From the NCBI GenBank assembly GCA_024644105.1, contig JAHELP010000007.1, positions 1 to 39,962 on the forward strand: 39,962 bases of DNA, written 5' to 3'. Within the stretch, counting starts at the first letter, position 1, and each line of letters begins with the position of its first letter. The notes beneath the pieces are model-generated. The model ran no database searches and was not told where the DNA came from. It worked only from the letters and a program-made list of their open reading frames with translations. Shown here piece after piece: positions 520 to 30,906 of this stretch. The position numbers and the translations under genes are program-made. The stretch is from Candidatus Nitrosopumilus sp. Lineage in GTDB: Archaea; Thermoproteota; Nitrososphaeria; Nitrososphaerales; Nitrosopumilaceae.

Positions 520-1224
520 TTATGCTTCTTTTTCAGAAGGTTTGATGTATACATAATTCATGATTACTCCAGCAATTATTCCGCCAATAATTGGGGCTGC
601 CCAATATAGCCACTGGAACTCCCATGCACCTGAAACAATTGCAGGGCCGAAAGTTCTTGCAGGATTCATAGATGCTCCAGTAAATGGAACACCAACAAGA
701 TGCAATAAGAAGATCATTCCACCAATAGTTGCACCTTGAATACCACGTGCTGCTTTTTTATGAACTGCAACCATAAAGATTACAGTAACCAAAAAGAATG
801 TCAAAATACCTTCTAGTGCAAATGCAGACCAAACATTATGGTCAATTAGGTCACTTGGACCACCTTGAGTTCCAAAATTAACTGCAGGACCCATTACAGG
901 GAAGATAGCATACAAAATCAAACCTGCAATCACAGCACCAACTAGTTGTGAAATAATGTAACCAATTCCATTTGGAATGCTAATTTTTTTTGTAATCATC
1001 ATAGGAATTGTAACTGCAGGATTAATGTGAGCGCCAGAGATATGACCAAATGCATAAACCATCAATCCAATTGCTGCTCCGTGAGCTAATGAAATCATAA
1101 TGTTTGCATCAACAGTTAGTCCTGAACCGATTGCTTCTTTAGAAATTATAATAGATAAAACACCGAAAAACACCAAGGCAAAAGTTGCGATTCCTTCTGC
1201 AAGAAATGCTCTTGTATCAACCAT
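520..1224 (-). CDS. Aquaporin / MIP-family channel
   Basis: Membrane channel of the major intrinsic protein family, 234 residues, the usual family length, with six hydrophobic segments. Both pore motifs are intact: NPA at residues 68-70 and 187-189, the second followed by the selectivity-filter Arg190. By alignment from memory with E. coli AqpZ, the other filter positions read His48 (Phe in AqpZ), His175 (His) and Ala184 (Thr). His175 argues for a water-type rather than glycerol-type pore. A His at the helix-2 position is otherwise known from plant TIP channels, some of which conduct ammonia. The substrate is therefore open. The start ATG is 23 nt from a TATA-like box at 1248-1255. Confidence 0.92.
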   Translation of the reverse strand: MVDTRAFLAEGIATFALVFFGVLSIIISKEAIGSGLTVDANIMISLAHGAAIGLMVYAFGHISGAHINPAVTIPMMITKKISIPNGIGYIISQLVGAVIAGLILYAIFPVMGPAVNFGTQGGPSDLIDHNVWSAFALEGILTFFLVTVIFMVAVHKKAARGIQGATIGGMIFLLHLVGVPFTGASMNPARTFGPAIVSGAWEFQWLYWAAPIIGGIIAGVIMNYVYIKPSEKEA

Positions 1225-1247
1225 AAGCTAAAGCCTCGATTTTATCC

Positions 1248-1255
1248 ATATAAAA
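1248..1255 (-). promoter_or_regulatory. TATA box of the aquaporin gene
   Basis: TTTTATAT on the minus strand, 23 nt upstream of the aquaporin ATG. This is the archaeal spacing that puts transcription start at or next to the start codon (leaderless mRNA). Confidence 0.5.
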
Positions 1256-1326
1256 CATTCGACCAGATTTTGTGATCAAAGGATCTCAAAAAGTAATTAA
1301 TTACAGAGAAAACCTTTTGAGAATAC

Positions 1327-1791
1327 ATGGTTTCTGAAGGTGATTCTGTTCCAAAATTTGCAGTAAATGATGCAAACGGAAACAAAGTAAAATCTAGTGA
1401 TTTTAAGGGCAAAAAACATGCCATCTACTTTTACCCAAAAGATTTCACTCCAGGATGTACAACAGAGGCCGATGAGTTTTCTAAAGATTACAAGAAATTT
1501 CAAAAAGAAGGAATTGAAATTATCGGAGTCAGTCCTGACGATGTAGAGTCTCACAAAAAATTCTGTGATAAAATGAATATCAAATATCCACTCCTAGCAG
1601 ATGTAGATAAAGAAATTTCAAATGCCTTTGGTGTTTGGGGTAAGAAAAAATTCATGGGCAGAGAATACATGGGAGTAATGAGAAGTACATTTCTTGTAAA
1701 TGAAAAGGGAAAAATTTTCAAAATATATCCCAAGGTAAAACCTGCAGGACATTCTAAAGAAGTGCTAGAAGATTTTCTTAATTTAAAATAA
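1327..1791 (+). CDS. bcp: Peroxiredoxin, BCP/PrxQ type
   Basis: Thiol peroxidase that reduces hydrogen peroxide and organic hydroperoxides using a thioredoxin-like donor. The 154 residues match the family. The peroxidatic motif PxxxTxxC is present, with Pro37, Thr41 and Cys44. A second cysteine, Cys80, lies 36 residues further on. That spacing is known for the resolving cysteine of atypical two-Cys PrxQ enzymes, so an intramolecular disulfide is likely. No signal peptide is visible, so it should be cytoplasmic. It stands alone, divergent from the aquaporin gene. In an aerobic ammonia oxidiser, peroxide defence is a natural role. Confidence 0.93.
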   Translation: MVSEGDSVPKFAVNDANGNKVKSSDFKGKKHAIYFYPKDFTPGCTTEADEFSKDYKKFQKEGIEIIGVSPDDVESHKKFCDKMNIKYPLLADVDKEISNAFGVWGKKKFMGREYMGVMRSTFLVNEKGKIFKIYPKVKPAGHSKEVLEDFLNLK

Positions 1792-1820
1792 AAAGAAGTA
1801 AAGAAAAGGTTGTTGAAAGA

Positions 1821-2783
1821 TTAGAAACCTTTTGGTAGTGTGCCTTTAGATGCTTTAGGTGCTTCGGGTTCTGCTTCTTTTGGTTCAAAACCTTTTGGTA
1901 GTGTACCTCTACTAGCTGAACTTCGAGCTTTTGATTCTGCTTCAAGTAATTCTTGAAATGCCTTTTCGTCATCTACTCTTTGCTGTTCTATTCTTTGCAA
2001 GTAATCTGCTTCATAGTCTGCAAGTTTTTCTTGTCTAGATTTTCCATCATCACTGGATGTTGATTGTGGTGGTGGGGCTTGTTGCTGTTGTTTTGCTTCT
2101 CCCATACCTTTTGGTAGTGTGCCTTTTGCAGGCTTTGGTGGTTCTGGTGTTGGTGGTTGTTGTTCTGCTTGTGCAGCAACGCCTTCAACTGTCATATTGA
2201 CACCACTGAAACTTCCAAATTTCTTATCAGCAGGATGATATGCAAGTCTAGTTCTTGTTGCATAGTATTGGTTTGAACATGCTGTGTAACCTGTTACCAC
2301 TGCTTTTTGATCATTCCAGTTTTTGGTTGGAACTTTTCCTACAGGAGCAGTTAGTCTAACAAAGTATCTGTTAGGAGCTGGAGAATAGCCTGTGACTTTG
2401 GCTCTATAATCATGAAATGATGTCATAGGAGCAGTCATGTATGCATTCTCTAATGCGTCTTGTACAGTTGCTGGAGGTTGTGTTGTAGTTTCAGCTGGTT
2501 TTGGAACCTCTGCAGGTTTTTCTTCCATTCCTTTAGGTAGTGTACCTTTTGGTTTGGTGGTTGCTGCAGGTCTCTCAGCAGGTTTTGCTGGAGCTGGTTT
2601 TGTTTCAGCTGGCTTTACTTCAGCTGGTTTTGTTTCAGCTGGTTTTACCTCAGCAGGTTTTGCTTCTGCTGGCTTTGGAGCAGGTTTGGCTTCAAGTTGT
2701 GTTGATAATTTTGTTAATTTTGCCTCTAGTTCTGCAATTTTAGACTCTAGATCTTTTTTTGTACTTGCCTTTTTTGCTGCCAT
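1821..2783 (-). CDS. KGTLPKG-repeat protein, long paralogue
   Basis: Unrecognised 320-residue protein. In order: a short basic start (MAAKK), a coiled coil (about 10-35), a low-complexity tract of PAExK units (about 40-75), a compact-looking segment rich in Tyr, Thr and Arg (about 120-205), then a charged helical tail. The motif (K/R)GTLPKG(M/F) occurs four times, and the protein ends exactly in GTLPKGF. Its downstream paralogue shares 572 bp of identical DNA with it but differs at both ends. The ATG at 2783 is preferred over one seven codons earlier, because a GTTTATTTA box at 2806-2814 lies 22 nt before 2783. No signal peptide or membrane segment is seen. Function unknown. Confidence 0.8.
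   Translation of the reverse strand: MAAKKASTKKDLESKIAELEAKLTKLSTQLEAKPAPKPAEAKPAEVKPAETKPAEVKPAETKPAPAKPAERPAATTKPKGTLPKGMEEKPAEVPKPAETTTQPPATVQDALENAYMTAPMTSFHDYRAKVTGYSPAPNRYFVRLTAPVGKVPTKNWNDQKAVVTGYTACSNQYYATRTRLAYHPADKKFGSFSGVNMTVEGVAAQAEQQPPTPEPPKPAKGTLPKGMGEAKQQQQAPPPQSTSSDDGKSRQEKLADYEADYLQRIEQQRVDDEKAFQELLEAESKARSSASRGTLPKGFEPKEAEPEAPKASKGTLPKGF
2106..2677. repeat. Perfect direct repeat, copy 1 (572 bp)
   Basis: Every base of 2106-2677 matches 3162-3733 at a constant offset of 1056. The identity includes third codon positions and stops abruptly at both ends. The repeat covers the central domain, the PAExK tract and two GTLPKG motifs of the two paralogues. Confidence 0.97.
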
Positions 2784-2805
2784 TCCTTTCAGTAAATAAG
2801 CCATT

Positions 2806-2814
2806 GTTTATTTA
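2806..2814 (-). promoter_or_regulatory. TATA box of the long KGTLPKG protein
   Basis: TAAATAAAC on the minus strand, ending 22 nt before the ATG at 2783 and almost touching the upstream in-frame ATG at 2804. It therefore selects 2783 as the start. Confidence 0.5.
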
Positions 2815-2894
2815 CATTTTGATCATCGAAAATTTTTATTCAAAATAATTAGTAAAAATAAACAATATTTTGTAAAAATTTCATTAGTTGTGAA

Positions 2895-3086
2895 TTAATC
2901 AGGTTCCCAGAACTGCATCACATGCATACAATTGTTACATCTCCACAATCTTACATGAATTCCATTGTTTGGATCGGCAGCATAAGTTCCATCTTCAAGT
3001 TTCATGACTGTTGGAAGATAGCTTAATTCATTGTTTTCAAGCCATTCGTTTTGCTGGCAATTAGGACATTTGATTTTTGGGCCCAT
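2895..3086 (-). CDS. Small zinc-ribbon protein
   Basis: A 63-residue protein with two CxxC knuckles, CPNC near residue 7 and CNNC near residue 50, typical of a single zinc ribbon. The stretch between them is acidic and polar. I do not recognise the family. It lies between the two KGTLPKG paralogues on the same strand, so it may be co-expressed with them. The ATG at 3086 is preferred over a TTG two codons upstream. It could be a nucleic-acid or protein-binding module. No partner is apparent from sequence alone. Confidence 0.7.
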   Translation of the reverse strand: MGPKIKCPNCQQNEWLENNELSYLPTVMKLEDGTYAADPNNGIHVRLWRCNNCMHVMQFWEPD

Positions 3087-3155
3087 ATACAATATAGTGT
3101 ATGAACAAAGAAGAATATTACTATTAAAAATAGAAAATAAAAGATATTTTTTGAA

Positions 3156-3827
3156 TTAGAAACCTTTTGGTAGTGTGCCTTTTGCAGGCTTTGGTGGTTC
3201 TGGTGTTGGTGGTTGTTGTTCTGCTTGTGCAGCAACGCCTTCAACTGTCATATTGACACCACTGAAACTTCCAAATTTCTTATCAGCAGGATGATATGCA
3301 AGTCTAGTTCTTGTTGCATAGTATTGGTTTGAACATGCTGTGTAACCTGTTACCACTGCTTTTTGATCATTCCAGTTTTTGGTTGGAACTTTTCCTACAG
3401 GAGCAGTTAGTCTAACAAAGTATCTGTTAGGAGCTGGAGAATAGCCTGTGACTTTGGCTCTATAATCATGAAATGATGTCATAGGAGCAGTCATGTATGC
3501 ATTCTCTAATGCGTCTTGTACAGTTGCTGGAGGTTGTGTTGTAGTTTCAGCTGGTTTTGGAACCTCTGCAGGTTTTTCTTCCATTCCTTTAGGTAGTGTA
3601 CCTTTTGGTTTGGTGGTTGCTGCAGGTCTCTCAGCAGGTTTTGCTGGAGCTGGTTTTGTTTCAGCTGGCTTTACTTCAGCTGGTTTTGTTTCAGCTGGTT
3701 TTACCTCAGCAGGTTTTGCTTCTGCTGGCTTTGACTCAAGCTGAGTAGAAAGTTTATTCAACTTTGCTTCTAATTCGGCAATCTTTTTTTCAAGATCTGC
3801 TTTTGTTTGCTTTTTAGCAGCTGCCAT
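3156..3827 (-). CDS. KGTLPKG-repeat protein, short paralogue
   Basis: Unrecognised 223-residue paralogue of the neighbouring protein. It has the same architecture: basic start, coiled coil, PAExK tract, Tyr/Thr-rich domain. It ends directly after the domain with KGTLPKGF and lacks the charged helical tail. It carries two GTLPKG motifs, one of them terminal. The first 35 or so residues differ from the long copy at many positions while the rest is identical at DNA level. The ATG at 3827 (MAAAKK) is chosen because GTTTATGT at 3849-3856 lies 21 nt upstream and the start aligns with that of the long copy. Confidence 0.8.
   Translation of the reverse strand: MAAAKKQTKADLEKKIAELEAKLNKLSTQLESKPAEAKPAEVKPAETKPAEVKPAETKPAPAKPAERPAATTKPKGTLPKGMEEKPAEVPKPAETTTQPPATVQDALENAYMTAPMTSFHDYRAKVTGYSPAPNRYFVRLTAPVGKVPTKNWNDQKAVVTGYTACSNQYYATRTRLAYHPADKKFGSFSGVNMTVEGVAAQAEQQPPTPEPPKPAKGTLPKGF
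3162..3733. repeat. Perfect direct repeat, copy 2 (572 bp)
   Basis: Second copy of the identical 572-bp block described at 2106-2677. The flanking bases differ immediately outside it (3161 against 2105, 3734 against 2678). Confidence 0.97.
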
Positions 3828-11280: not shown

Positions 11281-12538
11281 AATTGATAAATCAAAAATTT
11301 CAGGGCAAATAGTTTGTCCTCCAAACAAGAGCTATACACATAGAGCAATTTTTCTTGCATCACTTGCCGGAAAAAATAGTGTTGTTGAGAATGTCTTATT
11401 TTCAGCAGATACAAAAGCTACAATTGAGGCATGCAAGAAGTTTGGGGCAGAGATTGAAGTTGGGGATTCGTCAATAATTGTCAAAAATCCCATAAAAATA
11501 GGCACAAATGTGCCTGAAATCAACACTGAAAATTCAGGTACCACAATTAGAATTGCATCAGGAATTGCTAGTTTATTTTCTGAGGAGATTACACTCACAG
11601 GAGATTCAAGTTTACAAAAAAGACCCATGCAACCTCTTTTAGATGCATTATCAAGTATCGGTGCTCAGTGTATCTCAACTGATGGGAAACCACCAATCAA
11701 AATCAAAGGGAAGATAACTGGTGGAGAAGTTAAAATTCCAGGGAATTTTTCCAGTCAATTTATTTCATCACTATTAATCTGTGCACCATTAACAGAGAAC
11801 GGAATAAATCTCACCATAGAAGGAAACTTGGTGTCAAAACCTTATCTTGATGCAACTATTGCTACAATGAGAAAATTTGGAGTAGTAGTTCAAACATTAA
11901 TTCCATACAAACGATATAATATATCACCACAAATTTACAAGGAAACAACATTTACAGTTCCAATTGATTTTTCCAGTCTTGCACTTCTTCTTTCAGCTAC
12001 AGTACTAAATGGAGAAGGTGTCACTATCAAAGGAAATATTGGAAATTTACCTCATGGAGATGAAGTATTCATAGATATTTTAGAACAGTTAGGAGTCAGT
12101 GTTACAATTGATGATGAACAGATAGAAATTAAATCCCCTGAAAAACTAAAGGGTGGGAAATTTGATCTAAGTAATTCACCAGATCTTCTTCCACCATTAT
12201 CAATTTTAGCATTGAATTCATCGGCTCCAATTGAAATATTTAATGTAAAGCATGCAAGGTTAAAAGAAACAGATAGAATTGGAATTATTTCCAGAGAACT
12301 TGTAAAACTTGGAATTAAAGTTCAGGAAAAAGAAGATGGTTTAATTCTAGAAGCATCAGATAAAATTTCTGGTGCAGATTTAATTTCTGAGGAGGATCAC
12401 AGGTTATTCATGGCATTTTGTATTGCTGGAATGTATGTAGGAAATTGTACTGTTACAGATCCTGAATCAGTCAAAGTGTCATACCCAAACTTTGTAGAAG
12501 AAATGAATAGAATGGGTGCCAAAATCCAAACTGAATAA
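11270..12538 (+). CDS. aroA: 3-phosphoshikimate 1-carboxyvinyltransferase (EPSP synthase)
   Basis: Transfers the enolpyruvyl group of PEP to shikimate-3-phosphate. Family motifs: NKSYTHRAIFLASLAG near residue 20, NSGTTIRI near 85, RPMQPLL near 112, and LKETDRI near 335. The ATG at 11270 is chosen, giving 422 residues, because the N-terminus then begins just before the first beta strand. The longer frame back to 11234 runs entirely inside the kinase gene. It is the last gene of this transcript. A structured intergenic element follows. Confidence 0.94.
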   Translation: MKSKIDKSKISGQIVCPPNKSYTHRAIFLASLAGKNSVVENVLFSADTKATIEACKKFGAEIEVGDSSIIVKNPIKIGTNVPEINTENSGTTIRIASGIASLFSEEITLTGDSSLQKRPMQPLLDALSSIGAQCISTDGKPPIKIKGKITGGEVKIPGNFSSQFISSLLICAPLTENGINLTIEGNLVSKPYLDATIATMRKFGVVVQTLIPYKRYNISPQIYKETTFTVPIDFSSLALLLSATVLNGEGVTIKGNIGNLPHGDEVFIDILEQLGVSVTIDDEQIEIKSPEKLKGGKFDLSNSPDLLPPLSILALNSSAPIEIFNVKHARLKETDRIGIISRELVKLGIKVQEKEDGLILEASDKISGADLISEEDHRLFMAFCIAGMYVGNCTVTDPESVKVSYPNFVEEMNRMGAKIQTE

Positions 12539-12574
12539 TTTTATTTTTCAAAAAAATTGCTTTATGAGATAAAA

Positions 12575-12660
12575 GGCGCGACCCTGTATAGGGTGAAAAG
12601 CATTCTCCTCACCCACAACGCTTTTGCGTAGATAACATGTCTTTTTCGCAGGGCCGCGCA
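12575..12660. ncRNA. Candidate structured RNA between aroA and aroC
   Basis: This GC-rich island stands out in the AT-rich 330-bp gap 12539-12868. An 11-position closing stem pairs 12576-12586 with 12649-12659, with one A-C mismatch. Inside are a hairpin 12591-12596/12609-12614 (GGGTGA with TCACCC) and a hairpin 12618-12621/12626-12629 (ACGC, loop TTTT, GCGT). An alternative hairpin, ACCCT 12581-12585 with AGGGT 12590-12594, would break the closing stem, so two states are possible. Strand is undecided, because plausible TATA-like boxes lie on both sides. I recognise no known RNA family. aroC has its own leaderless promoter downstream, so this is probably not an aroC leader. The rest of the gap is AT-rich without a visible gene. 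Confidence 0.45.
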
Positions 12661-12840
12661 AATTATTTGTTATAATTTACACGATTTTGCATATATAATG
12701 TATGTTATAATGATATTTAAGAATATAATATAATTATTTCATAAAATGTTTAGTTTTTCTATAATTTTTAAACAGGTATAAAGACTGTCCAAAAACATCC
12801 AATTACAGAAGAAAATTTTCAAATTATTTCAGAATGAGGA

Positions 12841-12848
12841 ATTATAAA
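12841..12848 (+). promoter_or_regulatory. TATA box of aroC
   Basis: ATTATAAA ends 20 nt before the aroC ATG, indicating a leaderless transcript that starts a new unit after the structured element. Confidence 0.55.
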
Positions 12849-12868
12849 CATCATTTAACTTTGATAGT

Positions 12869-13966
12869 ATGTTGCCGGGAAGTTCTATTGGTCAGCGTCT
12901 TGTTTTAACAAGTTTTGGTGAAAGTCATGGTAAATCCATTGGTGCCGTTTTAGATGGTTGTCCTGCCGGATTAGAGTTAGATGAAAAAGATATTCAAAAA
13001 ATGTTAGATCTTAGAAAACCAGGACAGAATATTATCTCAACACAAAGAAAAGAAGGTGACATTGTTGAAATTATTTCAGGAGTATTTAGAGGACATACTA
13101 CTGGAGCACCAATTACAATGATCATCTGGAACAGTGATCAAAAATCTAAAGACTATGAAAATTTGAAAACAAAACTAAGACCAGGTCATTCAGATTATAC
13201 TGCAATGGAAAAATATAATCATTTTAATGATCATAGAGGAGGAGGGAGATTTTCAGGAAGATTAACTGCAACTCATGTTATGGGTGGAGCAATTGCAAGA
13301 AAATTACTCAAAGTATCTTTAGGAATTGAAACTAATTCATTTGTATCACAGATTGGAAAAACAAAGATGGAAAGGGAATTTAATGATAAAATGATTAATT
13401 CTATTTACAAAAACGAAGTTCGATGTCCAGAAAATAAAACAGCAAAAATAATGAGAGAAAATATTTTAGCTGCTAAAAAGAAAGGAGATTCACTTGGAGG
13501 AATTATTGAATCAGTTACAACTAAAGTTCCCGTAGGTTTGGGTGAGCCAATTTTTAGTTCATTAGAATCTGATTTGAGTAAAGCTATTTTTTCAATTCCA
13601 TCTGTAAAAGGAATTGAATTCGGTTCTGGGTTTAGAGGTTCAGAACTTTATGGTTCAGAAAATAATGACTTGTACACTGTAAAGAAAGGCAAAATAGTCA
13701 CAGAAACAAACAGATCTGGAGGAATTCTAGGAGGTATTTCTAATGGAATGCCAATCACCATGAGAATTGCATTCAAGCCAGCATCATCTATTGCTCAAAA
13801 GCAAAAAACAGTAGACATTAAAACAAAAAAAGAAACGATTCTCCAAGTCAAAGGTAGACATGACCCATGTGTAGTACCAAGAGCCCCACCAGTAGTAGAT
13901 TCACTTGTAGCACTAACTATAGCAGATCATGCACTACTTTCTGGAAAAATAAAACCTGTATTATAA
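12869..13966 (+). CDS. aroC: Chorismate synthase
   Basis: Converts EPSP to chorismate with reduced FMN as cofactor. The 365-residue protein shows the N-terminal signature with FGESHG near residue 16, RPGHSDYTA near 108, DHRGGGRFSGRLTA near 123, and the C-terminal RHDPCVVPRAPPVV near 330, with a conserved RHDP. It is the first gene of the chorismate-to-tyrosine group. Only 4 bp separate it from the chorismate mutase fusion, so the two are surely co-transcribed. Confidence 0.96.
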   Translation: MLPGSSIGQRLVLTSFGESHGKSIGAVLDGCPAGLELDEKDIQKMLDLRKPGQNIISTQRKEGDIVEIISGVFRGHTTGAPITMIIWNSDQKSKDYENLKTKLRPGHSDYTAMEKYNHFNDHRGGGRFSGRLTATHVMGGAIARKLLKVSLGIETNSFVSQIGKTKMEREFNDKMINSIYKNEVRCPENKTAKIMRENILAAKKKGDSLGGIIESVTTKVPVGLGEPIFSSLESDLSKAIFSIPSVKGIEFGSGFRGSELYGSENNDLYTVKKGKIVTETNRSGGILGGISNGMPITMRIAFKPASSIAQKQKTVDIKTKKETILQVKGRHDPCVVPRAPPVVDSLVALTIADHALLSGKIKPVL

Positions 13967-13970
13967 GAAA

Positions 13971-15341
13971 ATGTCAGACATCAATGATCTTCGTAACAAG
14001 ATGGATGAAGTTACTCTAAAAATGATAGAGTTACTAAAAACTAGAACAGACATTGCAAAAGAAATTGGAGAAGTGAAAAAAAATATTGGAAAAGGAGTAA
14101 CTGATGAAGCTAGAGAAGATAGTTTACGTGGCAAAGTAATTTCATTATGTGAAGATATTGGGTTGAATGAAACAATTGCTACAAAATTTTTAAACTTTTT
14201 ACTAAATGAATCAATAAAAGTTCAATCAACAAATAAGCAAACTCATCTTTCAGTTTTCTTAAAAGCTAAATCACTTGAGGAACAAGGTAAAAAAATTATT
14301 CATATGGAAGTTGGAGAACCAGATTTTTTACCACCAAAAATTGTAAAAAATGCATTAGAAGAAGTATTTGACAAGGGATTTCTAAAATATGGTCAAGCAA
14401 AAGGAATGCCGGCATTCAGAGAAGCACTTGCAAAATACGTTTCTAAAACATTCAATGTAAACATCAATCATGAAAACATCATTGTCAGTCCTGGAGCTAG
14501 ATTTTCAATTTTTACTGCAATCACAACATTGTTGAATCCAGGGGATGAGATGATTGTAATTGAGCCTGCATGGCCAGCCTACAAAGATTGTGCATTAAAT
14601 TCTGGAATTAAAGTTAGAACTATCAATACTACTTTTGAGGATAAATGGGAACCATCATTAGACCAAATTAAAAAAACAATCAATTCAAATACAAAAATGA
14701 TTGTACTGAATTATCCTAATAATCCAACAGGGAAAATTCTAGATGAAAAATTACAAGATAGTATTATAGAACTTGCAAGAAAAAATGATCTCTATGTGTT
14801 AAGTGACGAAATTTATTCACAGTATGCAAAAACTAATTGGAAAAGTATCCTAAGCTATAACTATGAAAAAAGCATAGTTACCCAATCATTTTCAAAATCA
14901 CATGCAATGACTGGATTTAGAATAGGATACGGTATTGCAGATTCAAAAATTATCGAAAAAATGGCAAAATTACAAGCTTTATGTCTGACAAATGTATCAG
15001 AGCCAATTCAATACATAGCCATGAAAGCCCTTGAAGAAGACATATCCGATAATACTAATACAGTACAAAACAGACTAGATGTGTTGGCACAAAAAGCAAG
15101 CGAAATGGGATTAGAATTTGTAATTCCAGATGGAGCCATGTATCTTTTTGCAAGAATTAATCAACAAGGATTTGACGGGGTACAATTTGCCAACAGTACA
15201 TTAGAAAAAGGACTGGCAGTAGCTCCAGGGGAAGGATTTGGGGATTACAAAAATTTTATCAGACTTTCAGCATGTCAAGATGAAAAGGTATTGATTGAAG
15301 GAATGAATATACTAAGTAACGTCATGAGTGAGAATCAATGA
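13971..15341 (+). CDS. Chorismate mutase-aminotransferase fusion
   Basis: A 456-residue bifunctional protein. Residues 1-85 are an AroQ-type chorismate mutase helix bundle (LRNKMDEVTLKMIELLKTR, then a KGVTDEARED segment). Residues 95-456 form a fold-type I class I/II aminotransferase, with NNPTG at 250-254, Asp279 in SDEIY, the PLP lysine Lys309 in SFSKS, and a C-terminal Arg in FIRLS. The mutase would make prephenate. The transferase may aminate prephenate to arogenate, or act on phenylpyruvate and hydroxyphenylpyruvate. Which of these is inference. It overlaps tyrA as ATGA, keeping mutase, transferase and dehydrogenase together. Confidence 0.9.
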   Translation: MSDINDLRNKMDEVTLKMIELLKTRTDIAKEIGEVKKNIGKGVTDEAREDSLRGKVISLCEDIGLNETIATKFLNFLLNESIKVQSTNKQTHLSVFLKAKSLEEQGKKIIHMEVGEPDFLPPKIVKNALEEVFDKGFLKYGQAKGMPAFREALAKYVSKTFNVNINHENIIVSPGARFSIFTAITTLLNPGDEMIVIEPAWPAYKDCALNSGIKVRTINTTFEDKWEPSLDQIKKTINSNTKMIVLNYPNNPTGKILDEKLQDSIIELARKNDLYVLSDEIYSQYAKTNWKSILSYNYEKSIVTQSFSKSHAMTGFRIGYGIADSKIIEKMAKLQALCLTNVSEPIQYIAMKALEEDISDNTNTVQNRLDVLAQKASEMGLEFVIPDGAMYLFARINQQGFDGVQFANSTLEKGLAVAPGEGFGDYKNFIRLSACQDEKVLIEGMNILSNVMSENQ

Positions 15342-30779: not shown

Positions 30780-30906
30780 CCCGTGGTAGCTCAGCCTGGT
30801 AGAGCTTCCGGCTGTAGTTGTTGGCTTTAGATGGCTGACCGAAAAACAGCATATCAGGCATACAGAAACCGGGTTGTCGGTGGTTCAATTCCGCCCCGCG
30901 GGACCA
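30780..30906 (+). tRNA. tRNA-Tyr(GUA) with a 50-nt intron and encoded CCA
   Basis: Full cloverleaf: acceptor stem 30780-30786 with 30896-30902 (one T-G pair), D arm 30789-30805, anticodon stem 30807-30811 with 30869-30873, anticodon GTA at 30814-30816, T arm GGTGG/CCGCC with loop TTCAATT, discriminator A30903, then genomic CCA. The C1-G72 pair is the archaeal and eukaryotic tyrosine identity. The intron is 30818-30867, between positions 37 and 38. CTGT 30812-30815 pairs with ACAG 30862-30865, leaving 3-nt bulges 30816-30818 and 30866-30868, as in a bulge-helix-bulge cut by the splicing endonuclease. The innermost helix forms only with a one-base shift. Confidence 0.95.

Follow-up and report, generated by a model that had tools for sequence, protein, structure and literature searches.

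The hairpin-rich stretch at nt 12575–12660 of the window (the whole 39,962-nt stretch of Candidatus Nitrosopumilus DNA analysed here) is very probably a small RNA gene, encoded on the strand opposite to the one first proposed. The RNA family to which it belongs, found in ammonia-oxidising archaea, has apparently not been described before; its members begin with a tiny reading frame of nine codons. The predicted transcript, about 120–145 nt long, has its own TATA box, lies on the minus strand of the aroA–aroC gap and converges on aroA. By comparison with related copies, it would carry the reading frame at the expected start of transcription, a stop codon 3–4 nt before a closing helix (P1), a three-way junction and a U-rich end. 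Comparison of related sequences establishes the strand and fold of this RNA, its independence from the aro genes, its modular build and its multi-copy nature.

Strand and fold of the element

The earlier note had described an 11-position closing stem with two inner hairpins, and this part of the description was borne out. The sequence at nt 12560–12680 folds better than all of 200 shuffles on either strand (plus, -39.4 kcal/mol, z -5.38; minus, -41.6 kcal/mol, z -5.25). Energy alone is no guide to strand; pair types were examined in relatives. An AroC query confirmed 115 relatives, the best 80 loci of which were used; aroA was found upstream in 73 of those 80, in a list that also contains the window and its duplicate, L001. 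Thirty-seven gaps of 290–430 nt, that of the window included, were aligned (one, L066, was dropped beforehand for its different composition). The element is conserved in these relatives: 35 of the 37 gaps hold it, L018 has a remnant and L041 has none. With the last two left out, the 25 pairs in 34 distinct rows give 696 Watson-Crick cells, 137 cells that are G-U on the minus strand, only 7 that are A-C (G-U on the plus strand) and 10 others. Standard pairs fill 98.1% of the cells on the minus strand versus 82.8% on the plus strand, where P1 and another helix, P3, are interrupted by A.C oppositions that read as G.U on the minus strand. Examples over the 34 rows are P1 pair 11/86 (GU 28, AU 5, GC 1) and P3 pair 54/75 (GU 18, GC 10, AU 6). 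The RNAalifold consensus is -32.5 kcal/mol for minus versus -14.1 for plus; the unconstrained consensus fold on the minus strand recovers all three helices (24 of 25 pairs), while on the plus strand it is fragmented. The plus reading also exceeds its own shuffles on four of five measures, as is expected of the complement of a real helix. From the pair types it follows that the RNA runs from the aroC side towards aroA. The plus-strand RNA of the earlier note is ruled out by the pair types, the share of paired cells and the consensus folds.

Judged by covariation over 69 distinct rows of the aroA–aroC type, the minus-strand element is a three-way junction in which P1 (11 bp; 5' strand GCGCGGCCCTG, nt 12649–12659; 3' strand CAGGGTCGCGC, nt 12576–12586, the latter covarying also in the 34 rows) closes P2 and P3. 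P2 (6 bp) is formed by CTACGC (nt 12626–12631) and GCGTTG (nt 12616–12621) around a loop at nt 12622–12625, and P3 (10 bp) by GGGTGAGGAG (nt 12605–12614) and CTTTTCACCC (nt 12591–12600) around the loop AATG (nt 12601–12604); the junction TATA (nt 12587–12590) leads back to P1. In the 69 rows, P1 is 98.8% paired with two-sided changes at 6/11 pairs, P2 85.0% with 5/6 (its second pair is a mismatch in 46 rows), and P3 98.8% with 2/10. Overall, two-sided changes occur at 13/27 pairs in these rows, at 9/25 in the 34 gap rows, and at 11/25 in 30 rows of a second lineage, in which 98.5% of cells are paired. The covariation score lies above all 500 shuffles in each of the 34-, 69- and 30-row sets, and in the 38 rows of the type B paralogues described below; shuffles of the 69-row alignment reach none of five measures, and all these sets include related sequences, so that the counts are not independent events. 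Compensatory changes, the absence of which had been named beforehand as grounds for giving up the element, are present beyond every shuffle.

The tip of P3 reads GAGAATGC in 62 of 73 aroA–aroC-type rows and GAGAAAGC in nine. A coding start inside P3 (GAGGAGAATG on the minus strand) was considered and dropped, as GAGAATGC is missing in 11 of the 73 rows, the nine with GAGAAAGC among them. Mimicry of an anti-Shine-Dalgarno sequence by P3 (GAGG) was likewise dropped, 24 of the 30 second-lineage rows carrying AAGAGA instead. In one second-lineage copy (L194, nt 452–573) the tip GAGAATGCTTT has been swapped for GGATGGCTTCC and the stem kept.

An alternative ACCCT/AGGGT hairpin, which had been suggested as one arm of a switch, does exist in the window, and all five pairs are kept in 59 of the 69 aroA–aroC-type rows, but in none of the 30 rows of the second lineage, and it was dropped as a conserved switch. 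Its bases overlap strands that are conserved on account of P1 and P3, which makes it a probable by-product of these helices.

Downstream of P1 the minus strand is U-rich (nt 12550–12574), with TTTT (nt 12571–12574) one base past P1 and TTTTTTT at nt 12550–12556, and this is likely to be a terminator. Five or more consecutive Ts occur in the 50 nt that follow P1 at 73/73 aroA–aroC-type, 16/30 second-lineage and 12/60 type B loci, the flanks being AT-rich; long T runs are thus common past the copies here called type A (both lineages above) but not past type B. A scan for bacterial-type terminators found none.

Distribution and gene context

A model of the core alone (R1) matched 108 of 250 genomes of the family Nitrosopumilaceae, in 5 of 22 genera, with one copy in 107 genomes and two in the other (G196, both at contig ends). 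Over the order it matched 68 of 300 genomes in the same five genera. When 400 genomes of the class, from 82 genera, were searched with a core model of both lineages (R2), 103 genomes in 6 genera matched.

All 21 loci of four genera checked for aro genes (L140–L159, L161) have the RNA beside aroA. At one of these (L158, nt 906–3028) aroA seems rearranged or split, its first part being only weakly similar, and the RNA adjoins the disrupted gene. In the genus g15, aro genes were found at none of 19 fetched loci. Five g15 loci examined gene by gene have a sirtuin-type gene as one neighbour (in L122 and L136 a match to Pfam SIR2), and the downstream neighbour is convergent in all five of these second-lineage loci.

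As first proposed, the element might be a cis-acting leader or riboswitch of aroC, or a 3' UTR element of aroA, and its position in the aroA–aroC gap in most carriers examined would agree with this. The strand test found it on the wrong strand for both genes, so that it is no sense-strand leader; it reads towards aroA rather than from its 3' end. About 1.4 kb separate it from aroC in L056/L147 (one contig) and L144, where it is still beside aroA. In g15 its neighbour is a sirtuin gene, and L136 has it in the reverse orientation with the flanking genes unchanged. The different locus in g15, together with the varied spacing and orientation, indicates that the RNA behaves as a gene of its own. 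On these comparisons it is not a switch of aroA or aroC, and a cis-acting element of that kind is very improbable indeed. The suggested link to aromatic amino acids or chorismate fares no better, one genus carrying the RNA at a different locus and the paralogues lying at still others. The other option raised at the outset, an independent structured RNA, is the one that agrees with these loci.

Two further features of the region may be recorded. About 35 bases before aroC (nt 12833–12868, plus strand, AATGAGGAATTATAAACATC...) show conservation across the long gaps of the alignment, and the end of this stretch is also kept in many short gaps that have no RNA; it is perhaps the aroC promoter and leader. 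A single ORF at nt 13971–15341 (plus strand) encodes a fusion of chorismate mutase (CM_2) with a class I/II aminotransferase.

A putative promoter and nine-codon reading frame in type A

Upstream of P1, type A copies share a module in which TTAAATA is followed after 26–29 nt by ATG or GTG and a nine-codon ORF that stops 3–4 nt before P1. In the window the putative promoter is the TATA box TTAAATAT (nt 12713–12720, minus strand) and the predicted leaderless-type mini-ORF lies at nt 12663–12692 on the same strand (ATG CAA AAT CGT GTA AAT TAT AAC AAA and the stop TAA; MQNRVNYNK). Between the TATA box and the start codon many copies have a semi-conserved stretch, which in type A reads approximately ACRTATA and in type B is often TTCCTATA.

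The sample comprised 104 distinct full-length loci, reduced to 103 by dropping the degenerate L018; a further six ran off the end of a contig or stretch. TTAAAT (or TTGAAT) stands 26–29 nt 5' of codon 1 in all 103. The first codon reads ATG at 94 loci and GTG at 6; the remaining 3 have ATG exactly one codon later. A stop is at the expected place in 102 (TAA 53, TGA 46, TAG 3). Across the 103 loci codons 2–9 are free of in-frame stops; read in the two alternative frames they contain 56 and 87. As the ORF region lies outside R1, these counts are free of search bias. A base-shuffling test in each of 13 sequence clusters put the product probability that no stop occurs at roughly 7e-5. TGG never occurs at the stop site; some 4.6 would be expected over both types if the two bases were independent and kinship is not discounted, so its absence is a modest signal. 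Taken together, the start, stop and frame counts strongly suggest that the nine codons are translated.

Two loci depart from this pattern and were left out of alignments A5 and A8 and of the 13-cluster stop test. In L022 (nt 3710–3800) AAG replaces the stop and the frame continues into P1 for 27 codons. The degenerate copy (L018, nt 3709–3793, and L140, nt 3068–3152, probably one place, the two contigs being equally long) has lost part of P1, and its nine-codon frame is not intact.

A hairpin that could compete with P1

In type A, codons 4–7 (CGTGTAAATT, nt 12674–12683, minus strand) can pair with AATTTGCGCG (nt 12655–12664, minus strand), the last five bases of which are the first five of P1. 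This hairpin, P0, is paired in 94.1% of cells in the 69 rows and 99.6% in the 30 second-lineage rows. By pair, pairs 3–10 form in 99–103 of 103 rows, pair 2 in 86 (it is A.C in 16) and pair 1 in 67. Two-sided changes occur at 3/10 pairs in the 69 rows, a number reached by 24 of 500 shuffles, and at 1/9 pairs in the second lineage, reached by 66 of 500. In the second lineage pair 2 is A-U instead of G-C, alongside a change in P1, and the covariation score of P0 is exceeded by that of a version shifted by three columns. The minimum free energy fold keeps P1 and shortens P0, and in type B, judged by eye, P0 is not generally conserved. The overlap of the two helices is an attenuator-like geometry, here with no downstream gene to attenuate; on these data P0 is weak as a switch.

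Type B paralogues

R2 also gave a weak match in its sixth genus (G077; 26.6 bits, E 0.003). The copy has TTAAATAT, then ATG CGG AAG GAT GTA AAT CCT ATC GAC TAA, then P1, and a different inner part. Because R2 leaves out the ORF, the promoter and ORF of G077 are an independent check on the module. A sequence-only model of the promoter–ORF–P1 module (R3), run on 400 genomes of the class, gave between one and five matches in each of 192. Of these, 184 are in this family; matches in the other 8 (E 0.0017–0.0085) were taken as chance. Counted by genus, the matches fall in 23 of 82; five of these genera belong to other families and gave nothing but weak matches, and in 14 the best match reaches E 1e-4 or lower. 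Inspection of type B copies covered 10 genera; the genome of the window itself has two such copies, on contigs C63 and C73.

Type B copies run from promoter, ATG and nine codons to P1, an extra helix P1b (GCAGAAC/GTTCTGC or similar), P2 and P3. The promoter box is that of type A or a close variant. Sixty loci were chosen among the R3 matches listed; 38 rows were aligned, 22 of the 60 being left out of the alignment, and 7 type B loci were folded. In the 38 rows 95.3% of cells are paired, with two-sided changes at 15/27 pairs. An ATG, nine codons and a stop are in the expected place in 58 of the 60 and likewise in L292, and L254 has eight codons and is exactly three bases shorter. With L292 and L254 left out, the 58 loci have no in-frame stop versus 42 and 19 in the other frames, counts that are less independent than those of type A because R3 includes the ORF columns. 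By their module and fold, subtypes A and B are one multi-copy family in Nitrosopumilaceae.

The ORF region of type B is predicted to form a hairpin of its own in 7/7 folded loci. Aligned in one common register this 5' hairpin shows little covariation, and a single register was dropped. The hairpin means that the fixed ORF length could be structural. It lends some weight to a purely non-coding structured RNA, in which the 5' segment would be a hairpin and spacer of fixed length, the ATG, close to the start site, an initiator element of transcription, and T(A/G)(A/G) an unpaired spacer; the weak conservation of the nonapeptide would fit as well. That reading sits poorly with the frame itself: stops, many in the other frames, are absent from it in 103 and 58 loci (with the rough probability given above), ATG and GTG interchange, as do TAA, TGA and TAG, the start is shifted by exactly one codon in 3/3 exceptions, and L254 is shorter by exactly three bases. 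An RNA that is never translated is for these reasons possible but rather unlikely.

Single-base codon changes between nearest neighbours among 27 distinct type B ORFs (again leaving out L292 and L254) were 12 synonymous versus 21 non-synonymous, where about 5.2 of 24 sites are synonymous. This points to a weak or mild constraint on the nonapeptide. It bears on whether the locus chiefly yields a signalling or regulatory peptide of very few residues, the 3' structure being there only to stabilise and terminate the transcript. The nine codons in nearly all loci and a recognisable pattern across many of them, often M-x-K-D-(A/V/I)-N-P or related, would suit such a peptide. The peptide differs among paralogues and lineages, however, and is under mild purifying constraint, while the 3' fold is strongly conserved; a role as peptide source alone is accordingly quite improbable.

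The structure could also serve a base-pairing RNA that acts in trans, with the unpaired segment ACATGTTATC and the P3 loop (type A) pairing with mRNAs and the mini-ORF only protecting or loading the RNA. Both parts are nearly invariant within the aroA–aroC lineage, and the RNA is mostly conserved as a single copy with its own putative promoter. Against this, the segment between P1 and P2 differs in sequence between the two type A lineages and from type B. The best other match of the element in the genome of the window covers 17 bases (94%, E 0.9), as expected by chance, and lies in an ORF the codons of which carry the RNA's own sense, and is therefore no target. Pairing with mRNAs as the main function thus seems doubtful, though worth keeping in mind.

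The next called ORF (at least 90 codons) downstream of the 60 type B loci is convergent in 45 and co-directional in 14, with none called in 1. Eleven of the co-directional cases belong to the genus g16 (L246, L249, L251, L265, L269, L270, L272, L274, L275, L286 and L292). There the ORF lies 100–367 nt past the type B RNA. All eleven look like one gene, for the magnesium transporter CorA, and the three tested (L246, L251 and L292) match Pfam CorA; a cis role is possible at these loci.

Comparison with known RNAs

The claim that the element matches no known RNA family held in the Rfam scans. At the gathering threshold, Rfam 15 gave no match at the element and only a tRNA elsewhere in the window. 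A permissive scan of nt 12400–12900 gave six matches, all below gathering scores (best E 1.1); the C/D near-matches (E 1.1–6.1) fall at nt 12801–12860, outside the element. Among 19 type B loci Rfam found only two tRNAs, away from the element, and a permissive scan of five more found nothing at E up to 1. A tRNA identity was rejected, neither ARAGORN nor Rfam reporting a tRNA or tmRNA at the element. The tRNA of the window (nt 30780–30903, plus strand) is an Rfam match that ARAGORN does not report; at 124 nt it probably contains an intron. Archaeal SRP RNA (RF01857) and RNase P RNA (RF00373), likewise conserved structured archaeal RNAs, do not match the element, and the genome's own copies are elsewhere, on contigs C55 and C48. 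In the minus-strand fold, inspected by eye for the motifs of box C/D and H/ACA guide RNAs, no C/D boxes and no pocket in P2 or P3 were seen. Virus-borne copies were also sought: three patterns gave 0, 0 and 1 matches in the viral_contigs set, the one being without TATA box or P1 and hence a chance match.

No description of this RNA was found in the literature at title and abstract level, which, with subscription journals mostly outside the search, is weak evidence of absence. The accessible part of a report that names a euryarchaeal RNA, Tan1, has nothing resembling it (PMC5069720). The nearest described system found is rnTrpL/peTrpL of Sinorhizobium meliloti, in which a trp attenuator RNA and its leader peptide both act in trans; as far as the accessible text of that source goes, the 5' end of the RNA is the ATG of a short leader ORF of 14 amino acids, it has an attenuator structure and a terminator end, and it is formed by attenuation in front of trpE(G), the gene it controls (PMC7298713). 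To judge from the same text, the likeness is at most one of outline and the archaeal RNA is not a member: most archaeal copies face a convergent neighbour, and the window has no downstream operon to attenuate. The bacterial leader ORF has regulatory Trp codons, and no such codon run is evident in the archaeal mini-ORF. The present RNA is, moreover, archaeal and multi-copy.

Leader-peptide attenuators that depend on the ribosome (trp, his, erm type) have a short ORF with codons able to pair with a strand of the downstream helix. Type A is alike in that its codons can pair with a strand of P1 and the position of the ribosome could choose the fold. ORF and competing pairing are both conserved in type A, the pairing with weak covariation and translation being predicted. 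Unlike such attenuators, the archaeal RNA is at most loci not followed by a regulated gene (in the window convergent aroA takes the place of a co-directional controlled gene), its codon identity varies, and the geometry is not general in type B. For an archaeon, a survey of small ORFs and dual-function RNAs in Methanosarcina mazei describes, in the part accessible, short translated ORFs (PMC11456600). The anatomy of the present RNA fits a dual-function small RNA.

Proposed mode of action and significance

The reading we favour, which we hold to be somewhat probable, is that of a multi-copy, translated, standalone structured RNA with a dual purpose, in which translation would set the fold of the 3' part. 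We infer both the control of folding by translation and the action of the product in trans. A ribosome would initiate on the leaderless 5' end of the RNA; whether it then ran through the nine codons or paused on them would set the fold of the 3' domain. In subtype A, an empty message would favour P0, with codons 4–7 holding the first five bases of P1; a ribosome over these codons would leave P1 free to close, and one at the stop codon would cover the base of P1. Since most loci have no co-directional downstream gene, any effect would be exerted in trans, whether by the peptide, by the folded 3' domain or by the two together. The degenerate L018, in which part of P1 and the intact nine-codon frame are both lost, counts in favour of this reading. 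More broadly, and as a tentative possibility only, the family may represent a class of archaeal RNA machines in which a near-fixed leaderless nine-codon frame brings the ribosome to a set point at the foot of a three-way junction, the state of translation being read out by a standalone trans-acting RNA that an ammonia-oxidising archaeon carries in several copies.

In the sea, Nitrosopumilaceae rank with the most abundant archaea, and to our knowledge hardly any regulatory RNAs have been described from them. A structured RNA with a near-constant, leaderless-type ORF of nine codons, carried in several copies per genome and in at least 10 genera, would be a new gene class in this family. The coordinates given here are ready for the re-reading of existing RNA-seq and ribosome data, and they make testable whether very short translated frames control RNA folding in archaea, as attenuators do in bacteria.
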